A DNA stretch of 54,525 bases from an uncultured Verrucomicrobiota bacterium (GTDB lineage: Bacteria; Verrucomicrobiota; Kiritimatiellia; RFP12; UBA1067). Under the pieces are notes generated by a model. The model saw only the letters and a list, made by a program, of their open reading frames with translations. It had not been told where the DNA came from and made no database searches. Each line of letters opens with the position of its first letter. Within the stretch, counting starts at the first letter, position 1. The translations under genes were made by a program, and so were the position numbers. The stretch lies in contig CAMOCC010000008.1 of assembly GCA_946610035.1 (NCBI GenBank), positions 1 to 54,525 of the forward strand. The letters run 5' to 3'. Below, in pieces: positions 2 through 38,367 of the stretch.

Positions 2-3000
2 CGTGAAGAAGTTCCGCGCGCCGTCGATGAAGTACGAGCCGTAGGTGCCCGATAGCCCTTCTGCGCCCAGCGTCACTTCGCATGCCTCCCCGCCGACGAG
101 CCGAATCGACGTGGGGCCGTCTGCGGCAATCGCCGCCTTGCCCTTTTCGGCACTCTTGAGGGACTTCTTCTTGCCGTCCAACCCGACGACCGTCGCCTTC
201 ACCGCAGCAAGCCCAGTCTTCGCGTTCGCCTTCCCGACCTTTACCTGTATCGACCCGGCAACATTGCCATTTGTGGAAACCAAATACCCGTTATATTCGC
301 TTGCCGCCGTCGCAGGCACCACCCCGGCTATTGCCTCCGTCTCTTCGTAAAGTTCCGGCGTATGCGTTGGTGTCGGGGTGGGTTCTGCATTCTTCGTCCA
401 CTTCGCCAAGGCAATCGAATCTCCAGCCGTCTCATAAAGGATTGTAGCCGTCAGTTTCATGTCGCCGATATACCAACCGTCAAATGTATAGCCATCAAAG
501 GTTGGATTGGGCAATTCCCCAATCTCTTCTCCATACTCCACCTCCACGGATGCAGGCGAACAATCTCCACCCTGCGCATCCAGAAACAGCGTGTATGTGT
601 TGGCGTCGCAGATTGCGTAAACAACCATGTCGCCCGTCACGACCGTATTGGTCGTTATCGCCACCTTTGGATTGGACACTTCTCTCCATCCTGCGAACGA
701 ATAGCCCGCTCCGAATTCAGGCGCATCCGGCAGCGCACCAATGGTCAACCCTTCACCGACGCTGCGGCTTTCGAGCAAGACATGCAATCCTTTGTTGTCG
801 TAAAACGCCACTTCAAACATCTGCCGCCACGAGGCGTACACAGTCATATCCGCCGTTACGATGGTGGATGCCGTCACTTCATCGCCCGACGCCCCGCTAC
901 CCATTCGCCAACCGAGAAATTCGTAGCCATCTCGCGTCGCCGCCGGCAATTCGCCTACTGCACACCCGTTTGTCACCGCCCGCGTCGCTTCGCCCGATGT
1001 CCCATCCTGAGCATCAAATGTCACAGTCCATTCGCAAGATATCCCGCGGTCATTCCAAATCTCTGGAACGGCAGCCGATATGCCGCCCGACCAGCCGATT
1101 GTGCCACCAGTCACATACGAGACGAGCGTGCGCGGCGTTCCCTTGTAGATGTTCTTGCCGGTATCTGGCGCATCACCCAGATAGATGACCGAGGCGAGTG
1201 AACTACAGCCGGCGAACGTCTCGTCGTCAAGCCACACGATCGTGGCTGGAATCGTGACAGATCGCAACCCAGAACAGGATTCAAACGCATGGCCTGCGAT
1301 TGCCGAAACCGTACGCCCCCCGATCGAGGATAAAATATAAATCTCATCCACCGCAATTCCTTTGTATTCCTGCAGTGTCACCGTACCATCGTGGTTTTCA
1401 CTACAATCAAACGGCGGCTCATCATCTACTCTGTCCAAAAGAACAATCGGTCGTCCGTTCCATATCCCCGCAGAAAGCGCATCAGCCCACCCGCTTCTAT
1501 ATCGAGACACATAGGTTGTCAGATTACTTTGCCCGTTTTCATAGATGGTTGACGACACGCTATTGGGATGGTCTCCCTGAAACATTACCGAAGATAAATT
1601 CCGACAACCGACAACTGCATACTGCCCGATGCTCGTAACACTGCTCGGTATCGTCACGCTCGCAAGTCCACTACAGTAGGCGAACGCATAATCCCCAATG
1701 CTCGTCACCGAGCCAGGTATCATCACGTCCGTAAGAGAGCTGCAAGCGTAGAACGCAAAATCCCCGATACTCATCACCGAATCCGGTATCGTCACACTCG
1801 TAAGTCCACGACAGTCCTCAAACGCAAAATCCCCGATGCTCGTCACCGTGTCCGGGATCGTCACATTGCCGTTCACACCCCGCACAAGAGTATTGCCATC
1901 TTTAGACAGCAACAGCCCATTGATCGACTTGTAGTTAGAGTTTCCAGAACCAACAATAAACGCCGTAAGTCTGCCACAACCAGTGAACGCACGATACCCG
2001 ATGCTCATCACCGAGTCGGGTATCGTCACGCTCGTAAGCATATGACAGTCCTCAAACGCAGAATCCCCGATGCTCGTAACGTTATTACCCATCGTCACTC
2101 TCGTAAGAGAACTGCACCAATCGAACGACCTCTCCCCGATGCTCGTCACGCCGTTGCCGATCGTCACACTCGTAAGTGAGTCGCAACCATAGAACGCCTC
2201 CTCCCCGATACTCGTAACCGAGTCAGGGATCGTCACGCTCGTAAGAGAGTTGCAATTAAGGAACGCCCCATCCCCGATGATCGTAACCGAGTCAGGGATC
2301 GTCACGCTCGTAAGACCGTCACAATTGTAGAACGCCCACCCCCCGATGCTCGTCACCGAGTCGGGGATCGTCACGCTCGTAAGACCACGACAGTCCTTAA
2401 ACGCAAAATCCCCAATATTGGTGACCGCTGAAGAACACAAAACATTCGTGATTGACCAATCCGCAGACCAGAAGAAAACATTTCTCAGCTGGCGGTCAAG
2501 AATGTATTGCGAGACAGTCACATCTTTTATGCCGCTACAGGCATAGAACGCATTATTCCCGATACTTGTAACCGAGTCAGGTATCGTTACGTTCGCAAGC
2601 GAGCCGCAACCGTCAAACGCACCATCCCCGATGTTCGCCACGCCTTCGGGTATCATCACACTCGTAAGCCCACGGCAACCCCAGAACGCATAATTCCCGA
2701 TGCTCGTAACGCTGTCAGGTATCGTCACACTCGTAAGACTGTGGCAACCGCTGAACGCATAATTCCCGATGCTCGTAACGCTGTCAGGTATCGTCACACT
2801 CGTAAGACTGTAGCAGTTCTCAAACGCATGTACACCGATATGTGAGATTGTCGTAGAGTACGAGACATTCGTTATTGACGAATAGGCAGACGGGAAAACT
2901 CTTCTCAGCATGACGTCAAACGGGACAGTCACATTCTTTATGCCGCTGCAGCCCTCAAATGCAGAACTTCCGATGCTCGTAACGCCGTTGCCTATCGTCA

Positions 3001-10061: not shown

Positions 10062-11963
10062 CTACACGTCGCTCTCCTGGAAGGTGAAGTGCGTCACCCT
10101 CACGCCCGTCGGGGCGAGCGTGTCCTTTACTATCTTGAGCCATTCGCGTGATATTTCGCACGCGACGACGACCGTGTCGACGTTGAGCCGGTTGATTATC
10201 TCGGGGGCCTCGGCGAGCGTCCCCTCGATGCGAATGCCGCCGATGTAGTGTCCGCGAAGGAGTATGTCGTCGTCCAGGAGCCCGACGATGATGCGGGAGT
10301 TGACGGAAGTCGTGCGGACGAGTTCCCGGCGGAAGGTGCGGTACCTCAGGCCCGCGCCGTAGACGAGGATGCGCGAGACGTCCTTCCTCCCCTTCAGGCG
10401 GGAACAGTCGAGCGCGTAGAAGACGTCCCTGACGACGGACCTCGCAAGCCTCAACGCCGCGAGCAGGCTGAACGAGAGCGCCGCATAGCCGGCTGTGACG
10501 CGGAAGATGGCCGACGGATTGATCGACGGCGCGAAGAAGACGCCGCCGCCGCCGAGGAACGAGCCGAAGAAGCAGGCGAAGGCGAGGCGTATGTAGTTCG
10601 AGAGCATCGCCCTCGACCAGACGGTCCTGTACACCTTGAAGAAGACGAGGAACACGAACACGCTGAAGACGCGAATGAGGAGCCCGAGCCTCAGCACCGG
10701 CGCCGTCAGCGGCTGGTGGACGGCCCACATCATGATGAAGAAGGACGCTATGAGCAGCGCGATGTCGCATCCGAGGTAGAGCGGCACGGCGAGCCTGGCC
10801 CTCCGCCGCCTCGCGGCGGTCGTGCGGTTGTGCGCCACGGAGTTGAGCAGCCGCCCCGCGTCGTACAGCTCGATTCGCGCCATGTTCTTGAAGACGACGA
10901 AGCAGGCGAAGGCGACCGCCAGGAGCCAGAGTCCGCTAGTGTGCGACTTGAGGGCGGCCGCGACAAGACCTATGCCGACGCCCGTCGCGGTGATCAGGTA
11001 GAGCGTCCACGCAGCCTTGCGCTGGTTGAGCCCGGCCGCCCGCAGGATGCGGTGGTGCAGGTGGTCGACGTCAGCCGTCATGACCTTGTCGTTGCCTACG
11101 GCGTCAGCCTTGTCGCGGCGGCGGATTATGTGGCGTATCGAGCGCCTGATGATCGCAAGGGCCGTGTCGAAGATCGGGACGCCCATCGCGAGGAGCGGAA
11201 CGCCGACGGAGACTAGGAACGAGTTAGGCACCTGCGATATGAGCGGCAGTGTCGCGAGGATGAAGCCGATGAACATCGACCCCGAGTCGCCTAGGAACAC
11301 GCTCGCGGGGTTGTAGTTGTAGCGGAGGAACCCGAGGAGCCCGCCTGCGAAGGCGAAGTAGAAGAGCGTCGACTGGGGGTTCTTTATGATGAAGAGCGTC
11401 CCGGCCATGCCGAGCGTCGCGATGAAGGCGATGCCCGAGGCGAGTCCGTCGAGTCCGTCGATCAGGTTGAAGGCGTTGACCGCGCCGACGATCCAGAAGA
11501 CGGTCAGCGGGCAGTCCAGCCAAGCCGGGAGGTTTGGCCAGAGGCGGCCGAAGCCGAGCCCCACACAGCCCCACGCCAATACCGCCGCGACTATCTGGCC
11601 GGCAAGCTTCGCCTTCGGCGAAAGACCGTACTTGTCGTCCGCATACCCGAGCGCGACGACACCCGCCGCGATTGCCGAGAGCTTCCAGAAGGTGTCCGCC
11701 GACACGCCGTCGCCCTGGAGGGGCGGACGCCCCGTGGCAAGCGCGAAGATCGAGTAGGATACCATCACGCCGAGGAAGAGCGCGAGCCCTCCGCCGCGCG
11801 GGATGGGCACCTTGTTTATCCTCCTGGAGTCCGGCCTGTCCACCATCCCGAACCGGCGGTTCATCTCCCGCACGATCGGCGTGAGGATGAATGTCAGCGC
11901 GAGCGCGCCCGCAAAGGCGACGATGTAGTCCACAGCCTTGATCGCGAGCGGCGCGGGATTCAT
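10062..11963 (-). CDS. WecA/TagO-like sugar-1-phosphate transferase fused to FlaA1-type N-terminal domains
   Basis: The product has 633 residues. Residues 1 to about 350 are a multi-membrane-span undecaprenyl-phosphate HexNAc-1-phosphate transferase: YADDKYGL (the Asp pair), NAFNLIDGLDGLASG, FLGDSGSMFIGF and VDHLHHRIL are all present. It should load a sugar phosphate onto undecaprenyl phosphate at the inner membrane. Residues from about 385 to 500 form further membrane spans (VPLYLGCDIALL onward). Residues about 510-633 are a soluble Rossmann-like CoA_binding_3 domain (SRILVYGAGLRYRTFRREL, IIVGLLDDD). That half resembles the N-terminus of FlaA1/CapD/WbpM proteins, but their dehydratase domain is absent. 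The frame is open further upstream, but ATG 11963 overlaps the exosortase stop as ATGA, which indicates translational coupling. Confidence 0.85.
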   Translation of the reverse strand: MNPAPLAIKAVDYIVAFAGALALTFILTPIVREMNRRFGMVDRPDSRRINKVPIPRGGGLALFLGVMVSYSIFALATGRPPLQGDGVSADTFWKLSAIAAGVVALGYADDKYGLSPKAKLAGQIVAAVLAWGCVGLGFGRLWPNLPAWLDCPLTVFWIVGAVNAFNLIDGLDGLASGIAFIATLGMAGTLFIIKNPQSTLFYFAFAGGLLGFLRYNYNPASVFLGDSGSMFIGFILATLPLISQVPNSFLVSVGVPLLAMGVPIFDTALAIIRRSIRHIIRRRDKADAVGNDKVMTADVDHLHHRILRAAGLNQRKAAWTLYLITATGVGIGLVAAALKSHTSGLWLLAVAFACFVVFKNMARIELYDAGRLLNSVAHNRTTAARRRRARLAVPLYLGCDIALLIASFFIMMWAVHQPLTAPVLRLGLLIRVFSVFVFLVFFKVYRTVWSRAMLSNYIRLAFACFFGSFLGGGGVFFAPSINPSAIFRVTAGYAALSFSLLAALRLARSVVRDVFYALDCSRLKGRKDVSRILVYGAGLRYRTFRRELVRTTSVNSRIIVGLLDDDILLRGHYIGGIRIEGTLAEAPEIINRLNVDTVVVACEISREWLKIVKDTLAPTGVRVTHFTFQESDV

Positions 11964-13636
11964 TCGACGACCTCCTTGAGGGACATGAGCACGGACCTGA
12001 GCAGCCGCTCGTCGGGAACGTTGAGCTGGACCGTCACCATCACCCAGCGGTCGACGAGATTGCGGATCGTGCGGTCCCACACGTCGCGCAGGATGCGCGA
12101 CTCGTGAGAGTCCGTGCGGTACCCCTCCTGGTTGAAGAACGTGTAGGCGAAGAGCGCGGCGCCGCGTCCCCCCTTCGCCGAGAGGCCGATGACGTGCCAG
12201 ACGACGTCGCCGACGCGGATGGACGAGTCGGACGCCATGTCCAGCCCCTGCGAGGGGAGGCACAGCTCAGGACGGTGGAGCGACTGCTTGTTGGGCCCGC
12301 TGACCACCGTCGATACGGTGAAGAGCGCCGGCGTGTCGACGTCGACGGCGCCCTGCGTGTAGGAGCGCTTGGAGAGCTTCGCCCCGACGAGGAGGTTCGT
12401 CTCCGCGACGGACGGCTCGATCGGCTCGCCCTTGAACGCGACATTGCCCGCCGGGAGCCTGAGGAACCTTTCTCCGTCAAGATTGATGTTGTATGCGGAG
12501 CCGAGCGGCACGGCGAGTTCGGCGGGGAGCTCGGCATCCGGCGCCTCCGCGATCACCGGCTTCGGCGACATCGCCTGCCACGACATGGCGGCGACGACGA
12601 CCGCGAGCGTCATGTACGGAACCGCCACGGCGGCGTTGGGCCTCCCCTCTTCAGGGGCGGACGCCTTGTCGGCAGGCGCGGGGGCGTCTTCACTCCTGCG
12701 GCCGCCGTCCTTGAATATCGCGTTGATGATTTCGCCCGCGCCCACCAGCAGCCCGATCGCGACGATGAAGACGACGAAGCCGGCGATGTCGTGGTAGAAG
12801 CCGAGCGCGAAGTCCGCATTGCAGAAGCGCGCCACGACGCAGATGGACATGATGCGCAGGACGTTGCCCGCGACCGCAAACGGTATCGCTAGCGCGAAGA
12901 GGATCGCGCGACGGCCCCAGGTGGGCTGGTTGAAGTATCCGTAGCCCGCCGAAAGCGCGAGGAGCGCGAGGATGGACCTGAGCCCGCTGCACGGGTTCGC
13001 TATGTCGATCACGAACTGCTCGCCGCCGATGACGACGGACGGGAGGGATATGAGGTTCCCCTCCCGCACGATGTCCATCCCGACGCCCGAGAGGATGTCA
13101 GCCGACACCGCGCTCACGAGAAGCCTCAGATGGACCGTGATGAGCGAGAGATACGAGTTGAGCGGCATGCAGAAGAGGAGGAACGCCGCAGGGAACAGCA
13201 CCCTTTCGGCCGTGCGTCGGCCGAAGACGGCCCACGGGATGGAGATGAGGAGCCCCACGAAGGCGATCAGCTCGAAGCGTACCTGAAGCCCGCGCGCGCC
13301 GAGGAACCCGAGGAAGATGAACGGCAGCGCGGCGACAAGGCCCGCAAGGGACGGATCGCCGATGGACGCCTTCAGCTTCGCGCGCTCGGAAAAGAGGACG
13401 TATAGCGAGAATATCGGCACGAACCACGCGAAGGACAGGTCCTCCTCCGGCGCTTCGAACATGGCTGGGAGGTGCCCGACGAACATGGCCTTCAATCCAG
13501 CCAGGACATGCCCGTTCGCAGCGTGGTGCCAGAACGCTGAGACATCGACACTCAACATCGCCCTGAAACCCACGGCAACGGCCGCATAGGCCGCTACCAG
13601 GAGTCCAAGTCTAATCGCATTCTTCTGTAGCTTCAT
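11960..13636 (-). CDS. Exosortase with fused EpsI-like C-terminal domain
   Basis: The product has 558 residues. Residues 1 to about 305 form an eight-to-ten-span membrane protein of the exosortase/archaeosortase family. The Cys-Arg-His active-site set is visible: Cys in NPCSGLRS (about 215), Arg in GNVLRIMS (about 260) and His in GFYHDIAGF (about 281). A charged linker and one more hydrophobic segment follow. The EpsI-like domain (about 330-558) has the typical HRPELCLPSQG motif. In characterised or predicted systems EpsI is often fused to or next to the exosortase. The enzyme would cut a PEP-CTERM-like signal and attach the protein to the outer surface. No PEP-CTERM protein is found in this window. 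Overlap with the sugar-phosphate transferase ties anchoring to polysaccharide synthesis. Confidence 0.88.
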   Translation of the reverse strand: MKLQKNAIRLGLLVAAYAAVAVGFRAMLSVDVSAFWHHAANGHVLAGLKAMFVGHLPAMFEAPEEDLSFAWFVPIFSLYVLFSERAKLKASIGDPSLAGLVAALPFIFLGFLGARGLQVRFELIAFVGLLISIPWAVFGRRTAERVLFPAAFLLFCMPLNSYLSLITVHLRLLVSAVSADILSGVGMDIVREGNLISLPSVVIGGEQFVIDIANPCSGLRSILALLALSAGYGYFNQPTWGRRAILFALAIPFAVAGNVLRIMSICVVARFCNADFALGFYHDIAGFVVFIVAIGLLVGAGEIINAIFKDGGRRSEDAPAPADKASAPEEGRPNAAVAVPYMTLAVVVAAMSWQAMSPKPVIAEAPDAELPAELAVPLGSAYNINLDGERFLRLPAGNVAFKGEPIEPSVAETNLLVGAKLSKRSYTQGAVDVDTPALFTVSTVVSGPNKQSLHRPELCLPSQGLDMASDSSIRVGDVVWHVIGLSAKGGRGAALFAYTFFNQEGYRTDSHESRILRDVWDRTIRNLVDRWVMVTVQLNVPDERLLRSVLMSLKEVVE

Positions 13637-26749: not shown

Positions 26750-27874
26750 TCACTTGCTAAACAGAAACTCCACAACGTCTCCGTCCTTCATCTCGTACTC
26801 CTTGCCCTCCGGCCTGAGCGCACCGGCGGCGCGCGCACCCGAAGTGCCGTTGTGGGCCACGTAGTCCTCGAAGGCGACGACTTCGGCGCGGATGAAGCCC
26901 TTCTCGAAATCCGTGTGGATGACGCCGGCGCACTTCGGCGCCTTCCATCCGCGGCGGAACGTCCATGCGCGGGACTCCTTCGGACCCGACGTGAAGTAGC
27001 TCGCAAGCCCGAGCGTGTGGTACGCGAGCTTGATCGTCCTGTCGAGCGAGGACTCCTCCAGTCCGTAGCTGGAGAGGAACTCCTTCGCCTCCTCGTCGGA
27101 AAGGCCCGCGAGGTCAGCCTCCATCTGCGCACAGATCGCGACCATCTCGCAGCCCTGCTTGTCGGCGTATGCCTTGAGCGCCGCGACGTGCTTGTTCGCG
27201 AATGGATCGCCGAGGTCGTCCTCGGCGACGTTCGCACAGTAGATGACCGACTTGTCCGTGAGGAAATGGAGCTCCTTCAGGACGGGGAGGATCGGGTCGC
27301 CCTCCGCGCGCGGGAAGCTGCGGACGGGGTTGCCGTCCTCCAGGTGCTTCAGGAGCGCCGCGCAGGCGTCCGCCTCGGGACGGAGCGGCGGCTTGGCCTG
27401 GGCCTCCTTCTTGATGCGGTCGTAGCGCTTCTGGAGCTGTTCCATGTCCGCAAGGATAAGCTCGGTCTCGATCACCTCGGCGTCGCCGACGGGGTCGATG
27501 GGGGCGGACTTGTTGCCGCCCTCCTGGACGTGGATGATGTCGTCGTTCTCGAAGCAGCGGACGACGTGCAGCACTGCGTCGCACTCGCGGATGTTGGCGA
27601 GGAACTTGTTTCCGAGGCCCTCGCCCCTGGAGGCGCCCTTGACGAGGCCCGCGATGTCCGTGAACTCGACCGTGGCGCGGATGATCTGCGCGGGATGGTC
27701 GATCGCGGCGAGCTTCTCGAGACGGGAGTCCTTGACCTCGACTATGGACGTATTCGGCTCGATCGTGCAGAACGGATAGTTCTCGGCGGCGGCCTGCTGC
27801 TTCTTTGTGAGCGCGTTGAACAGAGTGGACTTCCCGACGTTGGGGAGTCCTACGATACCTACTGATAGACTCAT
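26750..27874 (-). CDS. ychF: Redox-responsive ATPase/GTPase YchF (OLA1 family)
   Basis: The 374-residue Obg-family P-loop protein has G1 [23 protein letters not shown], the G3 region [22 protein letters not shown], and a C-terminal TGS domain ending [10 protein letters not shown]. YchF proteins prefer ATP and associate with ribosomes; they are nearly universal. Length matches the family (about 363-375). The coiled-coil protein gene upstream ends inside its start codon (ATGA overlap). Confidence 0.95.
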
Positions 27875-28818
27875 TGTTTCACTTCTTCCTTCTTCGGCGG
27901 CGTGTAGACCCAGTCGGGATACAGCCGCTTCAGTTCCTTACGGTAGAAATCAGCATCGGATACGCGGTCCGCCTTGACGGACTCGACGTACAGCCTCTCA
28001 AGCCGTCCCAAGATGTTCGACCGCGCCGTCGCGGTCGCAAGGTCGATGAGCTCCGCCTCCTCGCGGTGCGACTTGGCGAGGGTACGCGATTCGCGCGGGA
28101 GGGTCTTGTCGTTCTCCGGGAGGACGGGACCATCCGCCTTTTCGCCCTCCTTGTCGTCGGCGGCGGTCGTGTCGAGGTCCATGATCGTCTTCTCGGGACG
28201 AAGCGCCGCCTCGCGCTCGTCGAGGTCCTGCTTGAGAAGGAGGAGTTCGCGCTCGGCCTCCTCAAGGTTCATGCGCCTCAACTCGAGCGTCTTCGCCTCG
28301 GCCTCGGCGCGCGCGGCGATCTGCCGCACACGGTCCGCCTCCAGCTCGGCGAGATGTATCTGCGCGGCCGATTCCCGCTCGCGGTCCTTCGCCTCGATCT
28401 TCGCCTTCTCCGCCTCTGCCTTGGCCGTCGCAGCCTTCGCCTGCTCCGCCTCGGCGTCGGACGCCGCCTTCTGCGCATTCGCCTGCGCGGTCGCGCGCTC
28501 GGCCTCAGCCTTCGCACGCTCGTCTGCGGCCCTTGCCGCGGCCGACTTCTCGGCGGCGGCCCTCGCCTCGGCCGCCTTGCGGTCCTCCTCGGCCTTCTTG
28601 AGCGCGGTGGCGTTGGCCGCCTCCGTCCTCTCCGCCGCCTTCTCGGCCTTTATCTGGGCCTCCTCCTCGGCACGCGCCTCCTCGGCCTCGGCCTGCGCCC
28701 TCGAAGCGGCGGCCCTCGCCATGTCCGCCCGGTTGTCCGTAATGCGCATGGCCGCCCACGCGGCGACCACCACCGCGACCGCCACCGCCACTATCGAAAT
28801 CGTCTTTCCTTTATTCAT
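27871..28818 (-). CDS. Membrane-anchored coiled-coil (TolA-like) protein of unknown function
   Basis: The product has 315 residues. One N-terminal membrane segment (ISIVAVAVAVVVAAWAAM) is followed by a long Ala/Glu/Lys/Arg coiled coil (about 35-205, for example AEKAAERTEAANATALKKA). A small C-terminal region (about 245-315, ARSNILGRLERLYVESVK, then DADFYRKELKRLYPDWVY) looks folded. The composition resembles TolA domain II but no TolA C-terminal domain is seen. It lies between the giant LRR protein and ychF. A structural envelope role is possible but unproven. Low-complexity composition makes homology by eye unreliable. Confidence 0.75.
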   Translation of the reverse strand: MNKGKTISIVAVAVAVVVAAWAAMRITDNRADMARAAASRAQAEAEEARAEEEAQIKAEKAAERTEAANATALKKAEEDRKAAEARAAAEKSAAARAADERAKAEAERATAQANAQKAASDAEAEQAKAATAKAEAEKAKIEAKDRERESAAQIHLAELEADRVRQIAARAEAEAKTLELRRMNLEEAERELLLLKQDLDEREAALRPEKTIMDLDTTAADDKEGEKADGPVLPENDKTLPRESRTLAKSHREEAELIDLATATARSNILGRLERLYVESVKADRVSDADFYRKELKRLYPDWVYTPPKKEEVKQ

Positions 28819-28841: not shown

Positions 28842-31800
28842 TCACTCAAGCACAATTGGCACAGCCCCAACCTTTTTGATCAGAGCCGTCCCGTAGCCGA
28901 CACCGTCGACGACGACACCGGCGACAGAGGCGGTCCGCTTCTTGGACCGTCCGGACTCCGTCACCGAATACACCTTGAAGGAGCCCTTGAACGACCCCGT
29001 CTTGGCCGTATAGGAAAGCTTGATTCCGGCGGGATTGCCGTTCTCCACAGTCGTCTCGTACGACTCGTCGTCTCGGACGAACTTCACCCTGTCCGCCTTG
29101 GGGAACGTCCATCTGGACCCCGCGACGGCGAACTCCGTTCCGTCAGGCGACAGGTCATCTTCCACCATCTCGCCTGAGGCTTCCAATGCGGAGATGTCCG
29201 CCGTGACAGAGTGCTCCCCCTGCGAAAGGGCGCCGACTTTGCCTGCGGCCAAATCACCGAAATAAGCTGTCGCCTCCCCCGATGGCCCGATAAGCGCCGA
29301 TATCGATTCCACCGAAACCGTTACTTCATCGTCTTCCCTGCTGAAACGGAGGAGCAGTCCCAAACCGCCCGCCTTCCTATACAGCTGGGCGAACACCGGG
29401 ACAACGACATCGGTATACGAACCCTCCTCGTATCCGTTCAAGACATAGGAAGTGGACGAAAACGAAGTGCCGTCCGGGAGAGTCCCCTTGACCCTTGCCT
29501 TTCCGTTCGAGCGCATTTCAACGGACAGGGCGGCGTAACCAGTGTTGTCATCTGTGGAAAGCACAACCGCATAGTTGCCGGAGAAGTCGTCACCAACCGC
29601 CCTTGCCGCAGATCTTCGGTTGTAGTCGGAAGATTTCAGCCCGTCATCATAAGCCACAAATTCAGCACTGCCGAACGAGCCTTTCAGAAGGCCTCCTTCA
29701 TAATCAAAAGAAAGCGTCGCATCAAGGGAAGAGAACTCAACTTCGCCACCTTCCGATTCGGACATCACTCCCCTGGCCTTGAGCTTTTTCGCGTTCCCAA
29801 GCAACACAACGGATGCATTGACGACGGCATTCGTTTCTTCATCGGTCGAATTCCAGCTGCCCTTGGCGATCTTCACCTCCGCTATGCCGCATAAAGCATC
29901 GTCTTCGACAAGATATCCATGAAACGTCGAGGCCGCTTTAAAATTGTAGGCGTCTTCATCTTCTTCGTCTTCCTCGTCGTCTTCGGCGTCATCGTCGCCA
30001 TCATCACTTCCTCCGGAACCGTCCTTGAGCCAATGAGCGTACAACTTCATGGATGAACCTACTTCATAGTCATCAGTCACCTCAGACCCGCCGTAGGGAG
30101 CCGTGAACCAACCAACGAATGCATACCCCGGCCGGGAGTCCGGCTCAGGAAGATCCTCCAAGAGCCTCCCTCCGTTTGCAACATAGTAGAGATTCGTAGT
30201 CTCGCCGGATCCACCCTGGTACGCCAACGTCACCTTGGCTATATCTGCGCTAGTCCACCAGTGTATCTGACGACCAGGCGGTTTGGGGACAGGCCAACGC
30301 GAAGGAAGTCCGGGCGTTGATTTTTTAACCGTCGTTGCCGTAGCCGTCGAGTTCGTAGCTGCCTCGTCACTGCCATCGTCGTCATCGCCACCCGATGATT
30401 CGTCCACCCAACCACTCCTGAACTTCAGAACGTTTGAACAAAGTGTCGTTTTTGTTCCTACGTATATGTTCGTCGCGACCGTCTCGGGGCAGTCCCCATA
30501 GTAGCAGACGCGAACGAGGTTGGAGCAGTACGCAAAGGCGAAATCGCCAATCGAACCGACGTTCTCGGGTATTACAATACAGTCGTTGAACCCGGTGCAT
30601 CCGTAGAAAGCCTTCTTGCCGATCTCCTCTACGGTGTATGGGATGTCGATGTCGGTGAGTGCGACACATCCTTCAAAGGCGCTGTCGCAGATTTCCGTCG
30701 CGCCGTGGGAAAGTTTCACAGTCGTAATCCTGCGGTATGAGTCGGGGAACACCTCGGAAAGCACTAGTGAAGTTCCGAGCGTCACAGTTGTAACTGAGGT
30801 ACATCCCTTAAAGGCGTTGGTCGCAACGCTTGTTATGTTCGCCGGTATTGTAACGCTCCTGAGCGACTTGCATCCGGCAAAAGCGCCGGCAACAATGTTC
30901 GTGGAATCTCCTGAAACGACAATCTCCTCAATGGAGGCATAGGCAGCCGGATAGGCATTTGACATTATCTCATCGCCGTAGACAAACAACTTGTCCGTTA
31001 TCCCCGTACCATAGAACGCTCCTCTTCCTATGGCAGTGGCCGCCGTGACATCGGCCTTCTTCAACGACGTACAATACGCAAAGGCGTAGTCGCCGACCTC
31101 TTGGACCTTATCCGATATAGCCACCGAAGTCAAGCCAGCCCCGTAGAACGAATACGCGCCAATCGTCCGCAGCGAGGACGGGAATGTGACGGACACAATC
31201 TCCGTCCTGTTGCTGAACAAGCCGTCAGGTATAGCCGCCAGGCCGGATGGAAGAACGAGCGCACTCGGGCACTTCCCTTTGATTCCCAGAATATAGCCAT
31301 CCTTGTACACAACGCCATCGGACTGCGCATTCCAATATCCACCTTGGTAGAACGAACTATCCCCAAGTCTGGAAAGCGCGGCGGGTATCTTGAAATCGAC
31401 AAGAGAGGAAGTGCCCTCGAATGCAGAGACACCTATAGACACGAGATTTGTAGAGAAAGTGACATTGGTAAGCGACGAGCAACCGTAGAAAGCCCTGTCG
31501 GGGATGTTGGTCACTCCTGCCGGGATTGCAATGGACCAAAGCGATGAGCAGCCCTTGAACGCTTCACTGCCAATGGACCTAACAGACGACGGAAGCTCGA
31601 TGGTCTCAAGTTTCGCACAACCCATGAACGCCTCGGCGGCAATGTTCGTCACACCGTCCGCTATGATGATGGTCTTGATCTTGTCATACGATGACGGCTG
31701 AAGGTTGGACATTATGTCGTCGCCGGCATAAAGGACACCGTCGACAAACCCGGTGTTGTAGAAGGCGCGATATCCAACTTGAACCGAATCGCTGCTGTAT

Positions 31801-33494
31801 TCGGCCGATGCGAGACAAGTACACTCGGCGAAAGCGTACTCGCCTATCTTCGTCAATGTATCTGGAAGTTCGATGGCCTTCAACCCCGTATTGTAAAACG
31901 CATACGCACCGATCGACACGAGATTCGTCGGGAATACGACCTCGGTGACGTTTGTGCAGTCCCTAAGAAGACCTTCGGGTATCTCCTTCATCTCACCGGG
32001 GAACTCGACCTTCCCCGATGGCGACCCCTTCATGCCAAGAAAATATCCGTCCTTAAAAACCAGTCCTTCAGGTTCGTTGTTCCAGTACGCCGTATCGGCA
32101 AATGCCGAGGAACCGACGGAGATGTCTTTCGGCAAAGCAAATTTGTCGAGCGACGTTGCACCGTGGAAAGCCGATTTCCGGATTTCCTTGAGCGATTGCG
32201 GAAAAACAATCGATTCAAGAGAGGTACACGACTCAAAGGCCGATTCGGCAATTACGGTCAAATTTGTTGAAAGGTCCACGGAGGCCAGGTTCTGACATCC
32301 GAAGAAGGCAGCTAAACCAACTTCCGAGACGCCGCTTGAAAGCACAAGATTGGTCAGCGAATCACACATGAAAAAGGCATAGTCGCCAATGACTGCGTTA
32401 GATGATTTTCCCTCTGCAAAGCGCACGTCAGACAGTCCCGTGCAATCTCTGAAAGCATCGCGCCCTATAGTCGTCAGGGAACTCGGGAGCGTCAACTTGG
32501 CGAGGCTACTGCATTTGTGGAACGCCAAGTCCCCAATACTCTGTACACTATCGGCTATCGAAACATTTGTCACCGATGTGCAGTTTTCAAACGCCGACGC
32601 TCCAATGGAAGTAACATTTGTCGAAATGTCCAGCGATTCAAGCCCAGAACAGCCCTTAAAGGACGATTCTCCATAGTTCACATCCGCAGATGTTAGAGTG
32701 ACATCTTTGAGATTAACGGCAGACTGAAACGCCGATTTGCCAAAAGAGATGCTCCTGGCGTCGATGGATAGACTTGTGAGGCTGGTACACACGATGCTGT
32801 CAACGGAAACTCTTTCCGCCGAGATGGAAATATTGGTAAGCGAGCTGCAGGCATTAAAGGCCTTTGAACTAATTGTCAATTCAACCTTGGGAGAATTGAG
32901 CGAGACGTCTCCAATGAGACTGCAACCACTGAACGCGTATTCGCCGACATTTCTCAAGGTAGTCGGGAAAGACACCGAGACGAGAGAACGACAACCATGG
33001 AATGCATGTTTCGCAATATTGGTAACTCCCTCAGGAATGGATACAGACGTAATCGCTGTGCAATTGGAGAATGCGAAAGCTCCGATATCAGTGACCTGAA
33101 ATCCATTGATATTAGCAGGAATTTCGATTGGTCCTGAAAGCTTCGACGAATCTTCGACTGCGCTTAGGTTGCCGTCTATTATTCTGACATTCTCTATGGC
33201 CACAGAGCCTTCGCCTACAGAATGGTAGTAGAGAACTGTGTCCATGAAGCGTGTCGCCAACTGGAGCTCCTCCGCATATCCGCAAACGGACAACAGGAGC
33301 ACGGTTGCAATAGCCGCAGCCGACTTGCGGGCGAACCCGGGGATGCGGAATCCGCCGAAGACGGCGCGTTTGTGGCGTTCCGACGTGTTGAAGGACGTGG
33401 CACGGCGGGGCGGAGCGTCAAGCCCCGCCTCGCGCAGGTTGCGCCGCTTCTCTTCCCGGGAAGAGAGCCACTCGTTCCACTTCAACAGTTGCAT
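28842..33494 (-). CDS. Giant BspA-like LRR surface protein
   Basis: The product has 1,550 residues. An unusual N-terminal extension (about 1-55, MQLLKWNEWLSSREEKRR, basic and without a membrane segment) precedes a signal sequence (KSAAAIATVLLLSVCGYA, cleavage near AEE). LRR_5 repeats of about 23 residues fill about 110-1060, and a module of about 250 residues is duplicated in tandem (landmarks YWNNEPEG near 468 and YWNAQSDG near 718). An InlB-type repeat (GYAFVGWFTAPYGG), an Asp/Glu-rich acidic linker and a C-terminal beta-rich domain of about 330 residues (HGYLVEDDAL to the end) follow. The C-terminal domain is homologous to that of the protein at 2-3964. The gene starts 24 bp after the GspD-like secretin, so it may be a T2SS substrate. 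Confidence 0.88.
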   Translation of the reverse strand: MQLLKWNEWLSSREEKRRNLREAGLDAPPRRATSFNTSERHKRAVFGGFRIPGFARKSAAAIATVLLLSVCGYAEELQLATRFMDTVLYYHSVGEGSVAIENVRIIDGNLSAVEDSSKLSGPIEIPANINGFQVTDIGAFAFSNCTAITSVSIPEGVTNIAKHAFHGCRSLVSVSFPTTLRNVGEYAFSGCSLIGDVSLNSPKVELTISSKAFNACSSLTNISISAERVSVDSIVCTSLTSLSIDARSISFGKSAFQSAVNLKDVTLTSADVNYGESSFKGCSGLESLDISTNVTSIGASAFENCTSVTNVSIADSVQSIGDLAFHKCSSLAKLTLPSSLTTIGRDAFRDCTGLSDVRFAEGKSSNAVIGDYAFFMCDSLTNLVLSSGVSEVGLAAFFGCQNLASVDLSTNLTVIAESAFESCTSLESIVFPQSLKEIRKSAFHGATSLDKFALPKDISVGSSAFADTAYWNNEPEGLVFKDGYFLGMKGSPSGKVEFPGEMKEIPEGLLRDCTNVTEVVFPTNLVSIGAYAFYNTGLKAIELPDTLTKIGEYAFAECTCLASAEYSSDSVQVGYRAFYNTGFVDGVLYAGDDIMSNLQPSSYDKIKTIIIADGVTNIAAEAFMGCAKLETIELPSSVRSIGSEAFKGCSSLWSIAIPAGVTNIPDRAFYGCSSLTNVTFSTNLVSIGVSAFEGTSSLVDFKIPAALSRLGDSSFYQGGYWNAQSDGVVYKDGYILGIKGKCPSALVLPSGLAAIPDGLFSNRTEIVSVTFPSSLRTIGAYSFYGAGLTSVAISDKVQEVGDYAFAYCTSLKKADVTAATAIGRGAFYGTGITDKLFVYGDEIMSNAYPAAYASIEEIVVSGDSTNIVAGAFAGCKSLRSVTIPANITSVATNAFKGCTSVTTVTLGTSLVLSEVFPDSYRRITTVKLSHGATEICDSAFEGCVALTDIDIPYTVEEIGKKAFYGCTGFNDCIVIPENVGSIGDFAFAYCSNLVRVCYYGDCPETVATNIYVGTKTTLCSNVLKFRSGWVDESSGGDDDDGSDEAATNSTATATTVKKSTPGLPSRWPVPKPPGRQIHWWTSADIAKVTLAYQGGSGETTNLYYVANGGRLLEDLPEPDSRPGYAFVGWFTAPYGGSEVTDDYEVGSSMKLYAHWLKDGSGGSDDGDDDAEDDEEDEEDEDAYNFKAASTFHGYLVEDDALCGIAEVKIAKGSWNSTDEETNAVVNASVVLLGNAKKLKARGVMSESEGGEVEFSSLDATLSFDYEGGLLKGSFGSAEFVAYDDGLKSSDYNRRSAARAVGDDFSGNYAVVLSTDDNTGYAALSVEMRSNGKARVKGTLPDGTSFSSTSYVLNGYEEGSYTDVVVPVFAQLYRKAGGLGLLLRFSREDDEVTVSVESISALIGPSGEATAYFGDLAAGKVGALSQGEHSVTADISALEASGEMVEDDLSPDGTEFAVAGSRWTFPKADRVKFVRDDESYETTVENGNPAGIKLSYTAKTGSFKGSFKVYSVTESGRSKKRTASVAGVVVDGVGYGTALIKKVGAVPIVLE

Positions 33495-33518: not shown

Positions 33519-36500
33519 TCAACCTTCGGAAAGTTGCTGGAGGAGCGACGCCGTCGTCTCGGCCGGGGCCTCCTCCGCAGGGGCGGGGGCGGGCTCGGCA
33601 ACAGGCACCTGGACCGCCGGCGCGGGCGCAGGTTCTGCCGCAGGCACCTCAACCGCCGGCACGGGCGTCGGCTCTGCTGGTGTCTCTACCGCAGGTGCAG
33701 GTGCTTGCGGCGCGACCGTATCGCCCTTGAACTCGGCGTTTAGCTTCGCGTCCTCGGTCTTGATTGTCGCGTCCGCCTTGCCGAGCTTGTTCTTCTTGAT
33801 CACCTCGGCAAGCTCCTTCAATTCCTCCTGCGTGTAGTTCTCGACACGCTCATCGAAGGCATCCTTCTCTGACTCCTTGATCAACTCGTCCTTGTGCTGC
33901 TCAAGCCAGAACTTGCGCTCCGCCGCGTTCATCCTGTCCAACTCCTTGGCGCGGTCCATCTTCCACTTCTCGATCGCCAGCTTCGTCTGACGGTCGTCGT
34001 CGCGCTTCTTCGCCTCCTCCTTGAGCTTCCTCAGGCGCTCCTTCTGGGATACGGGGTCGGCGATGGGCGAATCGGACCACCCGTGCGTGTCGAACGGCTT
34101 GGAATCGCTCATCGCATTCTTGCGCCTGAGGGCCTCGGCCTGGGCCATTTCGCCGTCCGTGAGCACGTAGGGCGTCATGAAGACGAGCAGCTCCTTGCGC
34201 GACTCGGACTGGCTGACGTGCCCGAAGAGCCACTTGCCGATCCACGGGATGTCCTTGAGGATCGGGATGCCGGTCTCGGACTCCTGGGTGAACGTCTCGG
34301 TGAGGCCGCCGAGGACGACGGACTCCCTGTTCTCGAGAAGGACGTCGGCGGACATCTTGCGCGTGAGCGCGGTATCGACGTTCTCCTTGCTCGGGTTGCC
34401 GCTCGCGCTGCTCACGAGAATCGTCTGCCCCGCGCCGAGCTGGGAGTATTCCTCCTCGATGTTGAGCATGACCGTCCCGTTCGGGTTGATCTTCGGCGTC
34501 ACCTTGATCTTGATGCCGATGTCCTTGTCGGAATAGCTGTAGCTCGTCGTCGGGTTGTAGCCGCTCGAGGTCGTCGTCGATCCGCTGTAGAACTTGCGGG
34601 ACTCGGTCGCCTCGATCGTCGCCTCCTTGTTGTCCACCGTCATGACGACGGGCGAGGCGACGTACTTCGCGTGGCTGTCCGACTTCGACGCCTGGATGAC
34701 GGCGGCGAGGTTGAGCTTGTCGGACTTCAGGAAGTAGTTGATGCCGCTGCCGATCGGGTTGGCGCCGCCGAAGATCGTGCCGGATACCACGTTCGTTCCG
34801 ACGTCCATGATCGTGTTGAGGACGGACGAAGCGCTGCCGCCGCCGCCGCCGAGCGCGAAGCTGCCGTTGTTGGCGAAGCCGTCGCGCACAACCGTCGTAA
34901 TCGTCTTGTACACAGGCAGACCCGAGCTGTCGTCCGTATAGGAAGTGCCGTTGACGTTGCCGTTGTCGTCGAGCGTGTAGTACGCGGCGCGTCCGTACCG
35001 GTCCGTCACAGGCACACGGGTCGACGTCCTCTGCCTGCCGCGCATCACCCAGTCGATCCCCGTCTGGAGGTCGTCGCCGAGGGTGACTTCGACGATGACC
35101 GTCTCGATGAGGACCTGCGCGAGGCGGACGTCCATCGACTCGATTATGCCGAGGACCGTCGGCATGACGTCCTTGTGGGCCATCACGACGAGCCCGTTGA
35201 TTCGCTTGTCGGCGAGGATGTCCACGTTGTCCTTCGAGAGCTGCCCGGCCTTCGACTCGCCGCTGCCGCCGCGCTGGCCGGCATTGGCCGTATTGCGCGA
35301 AGGCTGGTTGGAGGTGCCGCGCGTGAGGTTGCCGCCCGAGCCGCTCCTGGCCGTCGACGAGGACGGGTTCTGGCTTCCCCTGGAAGAGTTCTTGGAGGCG
35401 GAGGAGTTGCCGATGAGGTCGTTTATCATGTCCGAGACGTCCTCGGCCTCGGCGTACTTGAGGCGGACGACCTTGACCTCGACCTCGGGCGTCGTCTCGA
35501 CGTCGAGCTCGCCGATGACCTTGTCGAAGAAGTCCATGTTCGGCTTTGAGGTGATGACGATGAGCTTGTTCGAGCGCTCGTCGGCCGTGATTAGCACCTT
35601 GCCGCGGATCATGCCGCGGTCGGCGTCCGAGACGCTGGTGACGAGGGATTCGAGATTCGCAGCGGGCGCGGGCTGGTTGTTGTTCTGCCCGGGGCGCCTG
35701 AGGAGAGAGCCATTGGGCGTGCTCGCCAGGAGCCTCCTGGAGCTGTCCTCGCTGTGCCCGGTCTTGGCCGCGTTGCTTGCCTTCTCGAGTTCCTTCTGGG
35801 ACTCCTGGACGATCTGCTCGAGCGCCGTCTTGATGTCTGTCGCGTTGGCGTTCTTGATCTGGCGGACGAACACGTTCTCGTTGATCGGGGTCGCGACGTC
35901 GATTTCGCGGGCGACCTTGCGCATGGCGTTGATGTTGAGTCCCGTGTCGGTTACGAGCACCTTGCCGATGCGCTCGTAGACGAGGAGGAGTCCCTTTGGC
36001 GACTTGAGTCCCTCAAGGACCGTCTTGGCCTCTTCGATGGGGATGTTCTTGAACGGGATCATCACCGAATAGACCGTCGAGGAGTTGGGGATTGCGGCTT
36101 CCTCGTCGATGATCACGGGGACGGCCTCGACGCGCGCCTTGTCGCGGGCGATGGAGCGGACGAACTTCCCCTCTTCGCCGTATGGCTCCATGTGGATTCC
36201 GTTCATCTCGAAGACGGCCTCGAGCGCGGCGATCTGGTCCTCCTTGGTGAGCTTCTGCCCGGGACGCGAGACGAGCGTTATCTTCGCGTCGGGCGTCGAC
36301 GGATCCTTGAGGACCGTCTTGCCGACGAGCTGTCCGTAGATCTTTAGCGCGATGTCGAGCTCGGTCCCCGCCGGGATGTAGATGTCGCTCGCCTGGTCGT
36401 CGTCGGTCGCGCCGGGTGCGGCGGAGGCGCGCGCGTCGGAGGGAGCGGCCGCGGCGGGCGCGGCTGCGGCGGGCGCGGTCGCACCACGACGTGTAGCAAA

Positions 36501-36566
36501 GCGCGACTGCGCGTCGACCGTGGCGGCAGCGGCAAGCGCCATTGCGAAGATAATAAGTTTTTTCAT
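33519..36566 (-). CDS. Type II secretion-like secretin (GspD/PilQ family)
   Basis: The product has 1,015 residues. A signal peptide (MKKLIIFAMALAAAATVDA) and an Ala/Pro-rich linker precede N-domains that line the periplasmic channel (VRLKYAEAEDVSDMINDLIG, then ADKRINGLVVMAHKDVMPTV). The secretin beta-barrel domain covers about 480-815: VLIETVIVEVTLGDD, IKVTPKINPNGTVML, VLLENRESVVLGGLTETF, VPWIGKWLFGH-like IPWIGKWLFGH and LLVFMTPYVLTD. About 200 extra C-terminal residues are charged coiled coil, then a Pro/Ala/Glu repeat tail. Residues 380-450 are Ser/Asn/Gly-rich, as in GspD N-domain linkers. It should form the outer-membrane gate. GspL- and GspM-like genes lie directly upstream. Confidence 0.9.
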   Translation of the reverse strand: MKKLIIFAMALAAAATVDAQSRFATRRGATAPAAAAPAAAAPSDARASAAPGATDDDQASDIYIPAGTELDIALKIYGQLVGKTVLKDPSTPDAKITLVSRPGQKLTKEDQIAALEAVFEMNGIHMEPYGEEGKFVRSIARDKARVEAVPVIIDEEAAIPNSSTVYSVMIPFKNIPIEEAKTVLEGLKSPKGLLLVYERIGKVLVTDTGLNINAMRKVAREIDVATPINENVFVRQIKNANATDIKTALEQIVQESQKELEKASNAAKTGHSEDSSRRLLASTPNGSLLRRPGQNNNQPAPAANLESLVTSVSDADRGMIRGKVLITADERSNKLIVITSKPNMDFFDKVIGELDVETTPEVEVKVVRLKYAEAEDVSDMINDLIGNSSASKNSSRGSQNPSSSTARSGSGGNLTRGTSNQPSRNTANAGQRGGSGESKAGQLSKDNVDILADKRINGLVVMAHKDVMPTVLGIIESMDVRLAQVLIETVIVEVTLGDDLQTGIDWVMRGRQRTSTRVPVTDRYGRAAYYTLDDNGNVNGTSYTDDSSGLPVYKTITTVVRDGFANNGSFALGGGGGSASSVLNTIMDVGTNVVSGTIFGGANPIGSGINYFLKSDKLNLAAVIQASKSDSHAKYVASPVVMTVDNKEATIEATESRKFYSGSTTTSSGYNPTTSYSYSDKDIGIKIKVTPKINPNGTVMLNIEEEYSQLGAGQTILVSSASGNPSKENVDTALTRKMSADVLLENRESVVLGGLTETFTQESETGIPILKDIPWIGKWLFGHVSQSESRKELLVFMTPYVLTDGEMAQAEALRRKNAMSDSKPFDTHGWSDSPIADPVSQKERLRKLKEEAKKRDDDRQTKLAIEKWKMDRAKELDRMNAAERKFWLEQHKDELIKESEKDAFDERVENYTQEELKELAEVIKKNKLGKADATIKTEDAKLNAEFKGDTVAPQAPAPAVETPAEPTPVPAVEVPAAEPAPAPAVQVPVAEPAPAPAEEAPAETTASLLQQLSEG

Positions 36567-36571
36567 CTCGT

Positions 36572-37105
36572 CTACTTTCTCCTATATATGCACGTCAGCG
36601 TCATCTTGCCGGTGAGGAAGCCCGGTCGCTTGCTGTATGGATTGAAGTTTATAGCCTGGATGTCGAACTTGCCCTCGTCAGTCGTCTCGAGTTCGTAGAG
36701 GAACTTGACGAGAGTCTCCAGAGCACCGATCCACTCGACGTCGACCGTCATCTTCTTCATTTCGTCAGCCACGCCCTCGCGGCTCGACTTCTGGTTCGTG
36801 ATCGTGATGTGGTTCTTCTGGGCGATGGACTGGATGAGCCCGTACCAGAACGTATCCGCACCCTTTCCGTCCTCGATCTCCGGGATCTGAAGCACCTCGT
36901 CCCTGTACGCCTTGTCCCAGGTGTCCTTCTCGGCGATGATCCGCCTTTCGCGGGCGACGCGCTTGAGCGCATTGTCGTAGCGGCGTGTCGCGTCCTTCCA
37001 CGACCCGCTGAACGACGTGAACCACAGGAGGACTGTCACCGCATAGAGGGCGATCATCCCCAGGATGCCGAGAACGGCCTTCTCCTTCAACGATACGCCG
37101 CCCAT
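36572..37105 (-). CDS. GspM/PilO-like inner-membrane platform protein
   Basis: The product has 177 residues. One N-terminal membrane span (AVLGILGMIALYAVTVLLWF) is followed by a short coiled coil (YDNALKRVARERRIIAEK) and a ferredoxin-like periplasmic domain with KKMTVDVEWIGALETLVKFLYELE, as in PilO or GspM. The frame is open for 11 further codons upstream, but ATG 37105 shares one base with the stop of the GspL-like gene (TGATG) and begins just before the membrane span. The assignment rests on layout and context more than on sequence identity. Confidence 0.72.
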   Translation of the reverse strand: MGGVSLKEKAVLGILGMIALYAVTVLLWFTSFSGSWKDATRRYDNALKRVARERRIIAEKDTWDKAYRDEVLQIPEIEDGKGADTFWYGLIQSIAQKNHITITNQKSSREGVADEMKKMTVDVEWIGALETLVKFLYELETTDEGKFDIQAINFNPYSKRPGFLTGKMTLTCIYRRK

Positions 37106-38367
37106 CACTCGTCCTCCTCTGGTTGCCTGAAGCTGCATTCGACGTCGAACGTCGCCGCCCTGCCGCTTCTCGTGTTGATCCCCTTCGGCAGCGTCACCTC
37201 CGCGAAGAACGGCGTCTCGCCGTCCTCCTCGAGTCCGCTGATCTGCGAAAGCATCAGCGCGTCCAGCTTGTCCTTGAACATCAATATCGCCGCCTGGTCG
37301 CCGCTCGCGGCAGTCCCGCTGAACGTAAGGCGGTCGTTTCGCCTGAAGTTCCAGCGCGAAAGCTCCACATCCTCCGGCGGCAGCGCGGATACTACCGCCC
37401 TCAGAGTCTCAAGGCCGCCCTGGTCGTGGTTGGAGATGGCCTTCACGGCCTTGACCTGCTCGACCTTGGCGTTCACCTTGTTGTACATCGCCTTCTGCTC
37501 CTTCTGGTCGTTCAGGCGGTCCGTACGGTAGTCGTAGATCTTCGGCACGCCGATGAGCACGGCCATCGCAAGCGCCCATACCGCCCCCGCGACGCCGAAG
37601 CCGATCTTCATCTTCCGCTTGAAGCGAGTCTCCTCGAGAACCTCGCGCCAGCTGTCCGGCAGGGCGTTGAGCGTCCCCGCGTCGAGCGTCCGCTCCGCAA
37701 CTCCCCCGATGGCGTCGCCCGAGTCCTCCAGCGCCCTCACCGGCGCGAAGAGGTCGAGGCCTTCGGACGGGACCTCGCCCACCGTGACGACGCACTTCAG
37801 TTCGCGCGCTCCCGCGAACTCCTCGGCCTCCAGGAGCGAAAGCATCACCTCGCGGCGCATGTCGCCGCCGGGCGAGATTGCGCGGACCGCCACGGGAAGG
37901 TCGTCGTCCAGGACGAAGACTGCTATGTCGTCCGCCCCGCCGACGAGGAGTATCCGCCTGACGATCTCGCCGCCCACGTGAACGAACTGCGGAAGTATGG
38001 CGACAAGGCGTCCGAGCGGCAGCGCGTCTATCCGCGTTATGTTCAGACCCGCGCCGTCCAGGGCCGTCGCAATGTCGTCCGCCGACCCCTCCGGGAGCGC
38101 CGCCGCAAGGACTATGCGGCCACTTTCCGTCTCGCGAAGCGTCTCGCAGGACACGGTAAGCGGCTCGTCCGGGTACGGGGACATGGCCTTCAGCAACGGT
38201 GTCGCGTAGCCGACCGGATCCTCGAGGTTCTCTCCGGGGATCCGGACGATCTTCACGATAAGTCTGCTCAAAGGCAGGGCGAGCACGGCCTCGCGGAGCT
38301 TTCCGCCCGCCTCGGGGACCTTCAGTTCGCCGCCTTCCAACCAGGCAATCTGGACGCTTTCAGCCAT
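37105..38367 (-). CDS. GspL-like (PilM-PilN fused) secretion platform protein
   Basis: The product has 420 residues. The N-terminal half (1 to about 255) looks like the actin-like cytoplasmic domain of GspL/PilM, with LPLSRLIVKIVRIPGENL, NITRIDALPLGRLVAI and the degraded nucleotide-site strand RRILLVGGADDIAVFVLD. A single membrane span follows (VAGAVWALAMAVLIGVP, about 270), then a coiled coil and a PilN-like periplasmic domain (LSRWNFRRNDRLTFSGTA). In T2SS this protein links the GspE ATPase to the periplasmic part. GspE, GspF and pseudopilins are not in this window. It follows glycyl-tRNA synthetase by 15 bp. Confidence 0.75.
   Translation of the reverse strand: MAESVQIAWLEGGELKVPEAGGKLREAVLALPLSRLIVKIVRIPGENLEDPVGYATPLLKAMSPYPDEPLTVSCETLRETESGRIVLAAALPEGSADDIATALDGAGLNITRIDALPLGRLVAILPQFVHVGGEIVRRILLVGGADDIAVFVLDDDLPVAVRAISPGGDMRREVMLSLLEAEEFAGARELKCVVTVGEVPSEGLDLFAPVRALEDSGDAIGGVAERTLDAGTLNALPDSWREVLEETRFKRKMKIGFGVAGAVWALAMAVLIGVPKIYDYRTDRLNDQKEQKAMYNKVNAKVEQVKAVKAISNHDQGGLETLRAVVSALPPEDVELSRWNFRRNDRLTFSGTAASGDQAAILMFKDKLDALMLSQISGLEEDGETPFFAEVTLPKGINTRSGRAATFDVECSFRQPEEDE

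Follow-up and report, generated by a model that had tools for sequence, protein, structure and literature searches.

Two LRR proteins with a common C-terminal domain

The window, 54,525 nucleotides long, is the entire contig C8 of a MAG (3.03 Mb, 88% complete) from an uncultured member of the Kiritimatiellia, and it raises the question of what purpose is served by the C-terminal domain (CTD) common to two of its large LRR proteins, P0001 and P0002 (Table 1). A preliminary description of this DNA had placed both open reading frames (ORFs) correctly, and both lie on the minus strand. It had described LRR arrays that run into InlB-type repeats, and Pfam assigns LRR_5 and Flg_new repeats, the latter of the Listeria-Bacteroides type, to each protein. 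The motifs FHGYLV and YNGYLV reported for the shared domain are present, and an HMM built from the CTD of P0001 matches the corresponding part of P0002 with an E value of 5e-30, which is above chance. The complete copy does carry a long C-terminal domain, but its length is 364 aa and not the ~330 proposed. The C-terminal parts of the two proteins gave no Pfam match at an E value of ≤1 and no NCBIfam match. The signal peptide of P0001 (window 33273-33494, minus strand) has an unusually long n-region, with about 55 residues ahead of the hydrophobic stretch.

The answer preferred here, with a probability of roughly 0.5, is that the CTD would be a lineage-specific, modular C-terminal sorting or anchoring tag of one Kiritimatiellia family, served by a putative receptor or translocon.

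Table 1. Features of the window, with positions counted from its first nucleotide
Feature	Position	Strand	Description
P0001	28842..33494	-	1550 aa, complete; signal peptide, LRR_5 array, one Flg_new repeat, acidic linker, CTD
P0002	2..3964	-	1321 aa, 3' end open at contig edge; signal peptide, LRR_5 array, Flg_new repeats, start of CTD
CTD of P0001	28845..29936	-	residues 1187-1550, 364 aa, runs to the stop codon
CTD module A	29634..29936	-	predicted 8-stranded barrel, resembles fHbp/TbpB C-terminal barrels
CTD module B	29229..29588	-	optional middle beta module; absent from the short A+C form
CTD module C	28845..29228	-	last module, universal
P0002 CTD module A	2..307	-	first ~102 CTD residues; remainder beyond contig edge
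Coiled-coil protein	27871..28818	-	adjoins the P0001 gene downstream
Secretin (PF00263, PF03958)	33519..36566	-	directly upstream of the P0001 gene; adjacency kept in 10 genomes
GspM/PilO-like small protein	36572..37138	-	from gene order and appearance of the sequence, without Pfam match
GspL/PilM-like protein	37105..38367	-	from gene order and appearance of the sequence, without Pfam match
Exosortase (PF09721)	11960-13636 (domain 12731-13483)	-	E 9e-45

Modules and predicted structure of the CTD

The CTD occurs in three forms, as follows: A+B+C (~320-365 aa), A+C (~230-255 aa), and nearly C alone. Module C is marked by the motif NPsGLKLtYkaKxGxFKGSFKvY...KK...V.GVVV.GVGYGtAt.KK...PV.[IV][EKR]-COOH, and the C terminus of the CTD is a beta strand, e.g., GVGYGTALIKKVGAVPIVLE. 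The domain is strongly basic, with a median pI of 9.7 versus 4.7 for the remainder of the protein, and it is the more basic part in 68 of 70 proteins; lysine makes up 10.9% of the CTD versus 3.9% elsewhere, and several lysines of module C are near-invariant. Sequence homology among modules A, B, and C could not be demonstrated with hhalign.

The preliminary description had proposed a structure prediction, and AF2 modeling of the P0001 CTD with 34 relatives (pLDDT 93.4, pTM 0.88) returned three consecutive beta modules forming tandem barrels. Module A aligns with the C-terminal barrel of fHbp with a Z score of 10.9 (2.4 Å over 88 aa) and with the TbpB/LbpB barrels with Z scores of ~9. Module C, modeled alone with a pLDDT of 93.6, finds its best match in HphA (Z 6.2, 2.9 Å, 87 aa), followed by hemophilin (5.9), a surface lipoprotein barrel (5.7), and TbpB (5.3-5.4), all of these Z scores lying below the fold-specific level of the tool. 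The six best rows for module C are all Slam-cargo barrels, in alignments that extend to the C terminus of the model. The domain had been said to match no recognized signal of this kind, which holds for its sequence; in predicted structure, module A is close to T11SS/Slam cargo barrels. A sequence profile of the CTD retrieved a single weak match among PDB chains (E 0.045). Foldseek searches of BFVD and PDB with the whole CTD or module C gave low probabilities, TM-scores of ~0.3 or lower, and nothing usable; the sliding clamps and FABPs among these matches are likely due to chance.

C-terminal domains with the pattern W..G.F.G...G...VAKSGRISGKW, found in L054 (C104:2349-7637) and L071 (7492-10134), could be distantly related to the CTD barrels; the L054 domain has an E value of 0.002.

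Distribution, position, and passengers

A profile of the last 364 residues of P0001 matched 17 ORFs, P0002 included, in own-genome loci that had been fetched for such matches, and one of module C (the last ~104 residues) found 16 strong sites across the whole genome. Across 84,980 species genomes, a scan yielded 75 CTD loci. Every one of them bears the title of a Kiritimatiellae/Kiritimatiellia, Verrucomicrobia, Lentisphaerae, or uncultured-bacterium MAG, and many come from ruminant or horse gut. Matches occur in 58 of the 162 genomes of the order, many with 5 to 30 copies, and the CTD is absent from other genomes of the same genus that are at least 90% complete. Outside the family a single genome has a match, a weak one, and class- and phylum-wide searches retrieved no further CTD outside the order. 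A literature search did not find a domain of this kind in Kiritimatiellia.

A profile search and a count had been suggested in the preliminary description. The 75 loci contain 90 closed ORFs with module C, and in 88 of these it lies within 25 residues of the protein end, usually within 0 to 4; all strong own-genome copies are C-terminal. Among the 60 ORFs whose 5' end is closed, a crude test recognized a signal peptide in 51; the nine negatives include three fragments of less than 130 aa. Internal copies, which the preliminary description had taken to speak against a sorting role, occur in two ORFs, where the CTD is followed by a FISUMP-like domain (L124) or by another domain of ~130 aa (L071), so that the C-terminal position is strongly preferred and not absolute.

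The N-terminal parts belong to unrelated families. Among 56 such parts upstream of a CTD are Flg_new (30), LRR_5 (23), Thioredoxin_7 (9), Peptidase_C10 (6), reprolysin-type (2), and FGE-sulfatase (2) domains, together with beta-helix and pectate-lyase types; FISUMP is a further example. This diversity of passengers and the position of the CTD favor a role as a signal. The presence of several secreted LRR/Flg_new proteins with other C-terminal ends in the same genome indicates that the CTD is not needed by all of them. Three large secreted repeat proteins, L044 (C1:2454-5954), L057 (C20:33723-36593), and L058 (C47:172-5289), have another motif at their C termini (RFFRVEVQLP, AFLRIRK, and GFYRVVVAPYAPSK), which is perhaps a second C-terminal module.

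Exchange of the CTD between genes

In three own gene pairs (C7/C54, both C46 genes, and both C113 genes), the linker and CTD are nearly identical at the DNA level, with ~97% identity over 1041 nt, 96% over 914 nt, and 93% over 1073 nt. This cassette ends at the stop codon or a few bases away from it. On its 5' side, in all three pairs, ungapped identity drops to ~0.3, either inside the linker or where the CTD begins; 3' of the stop codon it is 0.27 in the C46 pair, the pair checked. The passengers within pairs differ, e.g., an LRR protein versus a beta-helix-like protein or a FISUMP-like protein versus another. Near-identical cassettes under different passengers indicate that the CTD passes from gene to gene as a single unit, by movement or conversion. 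They would also explain why contigs C8, C86, and C73 each start within a CTD, and P0002 is probably truncated because its CTD is a near-identical repeat that breaks assembly.

Cassette exchange alone speaks for modularity only, and the same pattern could be left by an ordinary C-terminal passenger domain for ligand binding or oligomerization that had spread by recombination among paralogues and plays no part in sorting. Barrels of the fHbp/TbpB type also carry ligand sites, in keeping with such a domain. This explanation is nevertheless quite improbable, as the CTD is found alike on proteases, thioredoxins, LRR proteins, and beta-helix proteins, and its terminal position is nearly fixed.

Linkage to a secretin and to a Wzy_C/PPIase locus

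The P0001 gene follows GspL-like, GspM-like, and secretin genes in an operon-like order. A CTD gene lies directly 3' of a homologous T2SS-like secretin in 10 of the 21 readable CTD-positive genomes, from several genera, a frequency far above chance in a rough binomial estimate that is uncorrected for shared ancestry. Nine of these 10 CTDs form an exclusive clade with a support of 0.98. The N-terminal parts of the secretin-linked proteins vary, being long LRR arrays in P0001 and L059 and mainly Flg_new with another beta domain in others. Relatives of the coiled-coil protein downstream of P0001 often directly follow the secretin in genomes that have no CTD gene there.

The conserved order, the adjacency, and the single clade with its varying N-terminal parts would fit a CTD that is the substrate-recognition domain of this T2SS-like machine, or a P0001 lineage that is itself a CTD-bearing part of the machine, as PorU and PorZ are CTD-bearing components of the T9SS. 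Either role is unlikely, since the secretin is present in 133 of the 162 genomes of the order, with or without CTDs, and many CTD-positive genomes have no CTD gene at the secretin. The check for co-occurrence with T2SS or exosortase that had been suggested has no discriminating power at the level of whole genomes, since both are very common throughout the order, but the CTD gene of P0001 does sit in a secretin operon.

A second linkage is found at C1:79.6-92.8 kb of the own genome (L046:1603-14764), where a SurA-like PPIase, a Wzy_C-family membrane protein, and a HEAT protein are encoded together with a small secreted module C protein, CTD-thioredoxins (one with a Cys-rich tail), and a CTD reprolysin-like protein; many relatives add a sugar transferase. 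CTD genes surround Wzy_C homologues in 19 genomes. Within the family, a close relative of this Wzy_C protein is present in 15 of 39 CTD-positive versus 3 of 76 CTD-negative genomes (Fisher p 4e-6, uncorrected for shared ancestry). The locus is probably devoted to exopolysaccharide or protein glycosylation.

The locus is conserved in L046, L118, L122, and L234-L243, and it has a secreted family with the motif KGLIWGCDC. Cys-rich tails (CDACED, CGSCND, CNACSD, and GSCGGGC) follow the CTD in CTD-thioredoxins of the locus at L118:6445-8277, L259:6860-9181, L262:3337-5214, and L046:8912-10765.

The charge of the CTD and its exopolysaccharide linkage favor an anchor. They could be accounted for by a polysaccharide anchor alone, with export by the T2SS or another general route and basic barrels, devoid of export information, that hold onto a putative acidic exopolysaccharide made by the Wzy_C/sugar-transferase locus. 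Besides the conserved lysines and the linkage to Wzy_C, sugar transferase, and PPIase genes, the one to three barrels in tandem, the two internal placements, and the free-standing module C protein within the locus agree with it; the near-solo module C as a small secreted protein is as compatible with binding or scaffolding as with a signal role. It is doubtful that anchoring is the whole role, because nothing in plain binding would call for a position flush with the C terminus, as seen in 88 of 90 ORFs.

Proposed role of the CTD

The preferred reading, a C-terminal sorting or anchoring tag as the preliminary description had suggested, is in line with the multiple copies, the almost invariably C-terminal position, the unrelated signal-peptide-bearing passengers, the cassette transfer, the predicted barrel fold, the basic charge, and the linkage to envelope loci, but no dedicated transporter was found. 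With such a tag, passenger proteins would cross the inner membrane by means of their Sec signal peptides. In the periplasm, the CTD would be a string of basic 8-stranded beta barrels, flush with the C terminus, and would be the part that is recognized. Recognition would lead to delivery across the outer membrane to the outer surface, and/or the CTD would retain the protein in a surface polysaccharide that the linked Wzy_C/sugar-transferase locus would produce. The CTD may act in the manner of the C-terminal T11SS cargo barrel or of the T9SS CTD, with a putative receptor or translocon. By analogy with the T9SS, the signal and anchor roles are compatible.

Little is known of how proteins are placed at the surface in the PVC phyla. 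In uncultured rumen and gut bacteria, the CTD labels a defined exo-proteome made up of proteases, LRR adhesin-like proteins, and thioredoxins, and it is a starting point in the search for the machinery that sorts these proteins.

Comparison with known secretion systems

None of the known secretion systems accounts for the CTD. The type V autotransporter barrel (PF03797) gave no Pfam match on it. The PEP-CTERM/exosortase (EpsH) system provides a precedent for a C-terminal sorting domain tied to exopolysaccharide genes, and the CTD resembles it in being C-terminal, multicopy, present on diverse signal-peptide proteins, and linked to exopolysaccharide genes (PMC1569441). In contrast to PEP-CTERM, the CTD ends in a beta strand and lacks the PEP motif, the transmembrane helix, and the basic tail. 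Exosortase is encoded in the window and in 151 of the 162 genomes, with or without CTDs, and it was set aside as a partner since its near-universal presence in the order does not discriminate.

The T9SS is described for Bacteroidota. Its CTD (Por_Secre_tail/TIGR04183) is likewise C-terminal, multicopy, and carried by proteases, LRR proteins, and other Sec-exported proteins. The preliminary description had drawn this comparison, which is not supported: the CTD has no Pfam or NCBIfam match to the T9SS CTD families, and its predicted fold is one of tandem barrels. Whereas the T9SS CTD is an Ig-like 3+4 sandwich (PMC11285876), the CTD here is 230 to 364 aa long and its modules are predicted by AF2 to be barrel-like; an Ig-like sandwich is absent among the structural matches listed, which is no proof of absence. 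SprA (PF14349) had no match in the 162 genomes, with control genomes equally silent. As a further parallel, T9SS proteins are linked to a surface glycan (PMC8545088).

The closest likeness is to T11SS (Slam) cargo (fHbp, TbpB/LbpB, hemophilin/HphA, and HpuA), which combines variable N-terminal effectors with an 8-stranded C-terminal barrel (TbpBBD/Lipoprotein C fold) thought to steer the cargo to Slam (PMC12282271), an architecture that the CTD proteins, with their predicted barrels, would share. Unlike this cargo, the CTD has no match to its sequence families (TbpB_B_D and Lipoprot_C; Pfam E ≤ 1), forms up to three barrels in tandem, is strongly basic, and occurs outside Proteobacteria. A search for Slam (PF04575, DUF560/SlipAM) found none over the cutoff in the 162 genomes, the CTD-rich ones included, in a search without a positive control genome that a very divergent Slam could escape, and Slam was set aside as a partner. 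An undescribed secretion and anchoring system in one gut Kiritimatiellia family can tentatively be put forward, in which a C-terminal export signal with the T11SS cargo fold would act without Slam, through the T2SS-like secretin or another translocon, and be coupled to the Wzy_C/PPIase exopolysaccharide locus. The likeness to T11SS cargo is one of a possible working mode and not of membership; should the similar fold stem from a common mechanism, outer-membrane export signals of the barrel type would not be confined to Proteobacteria and Slam.
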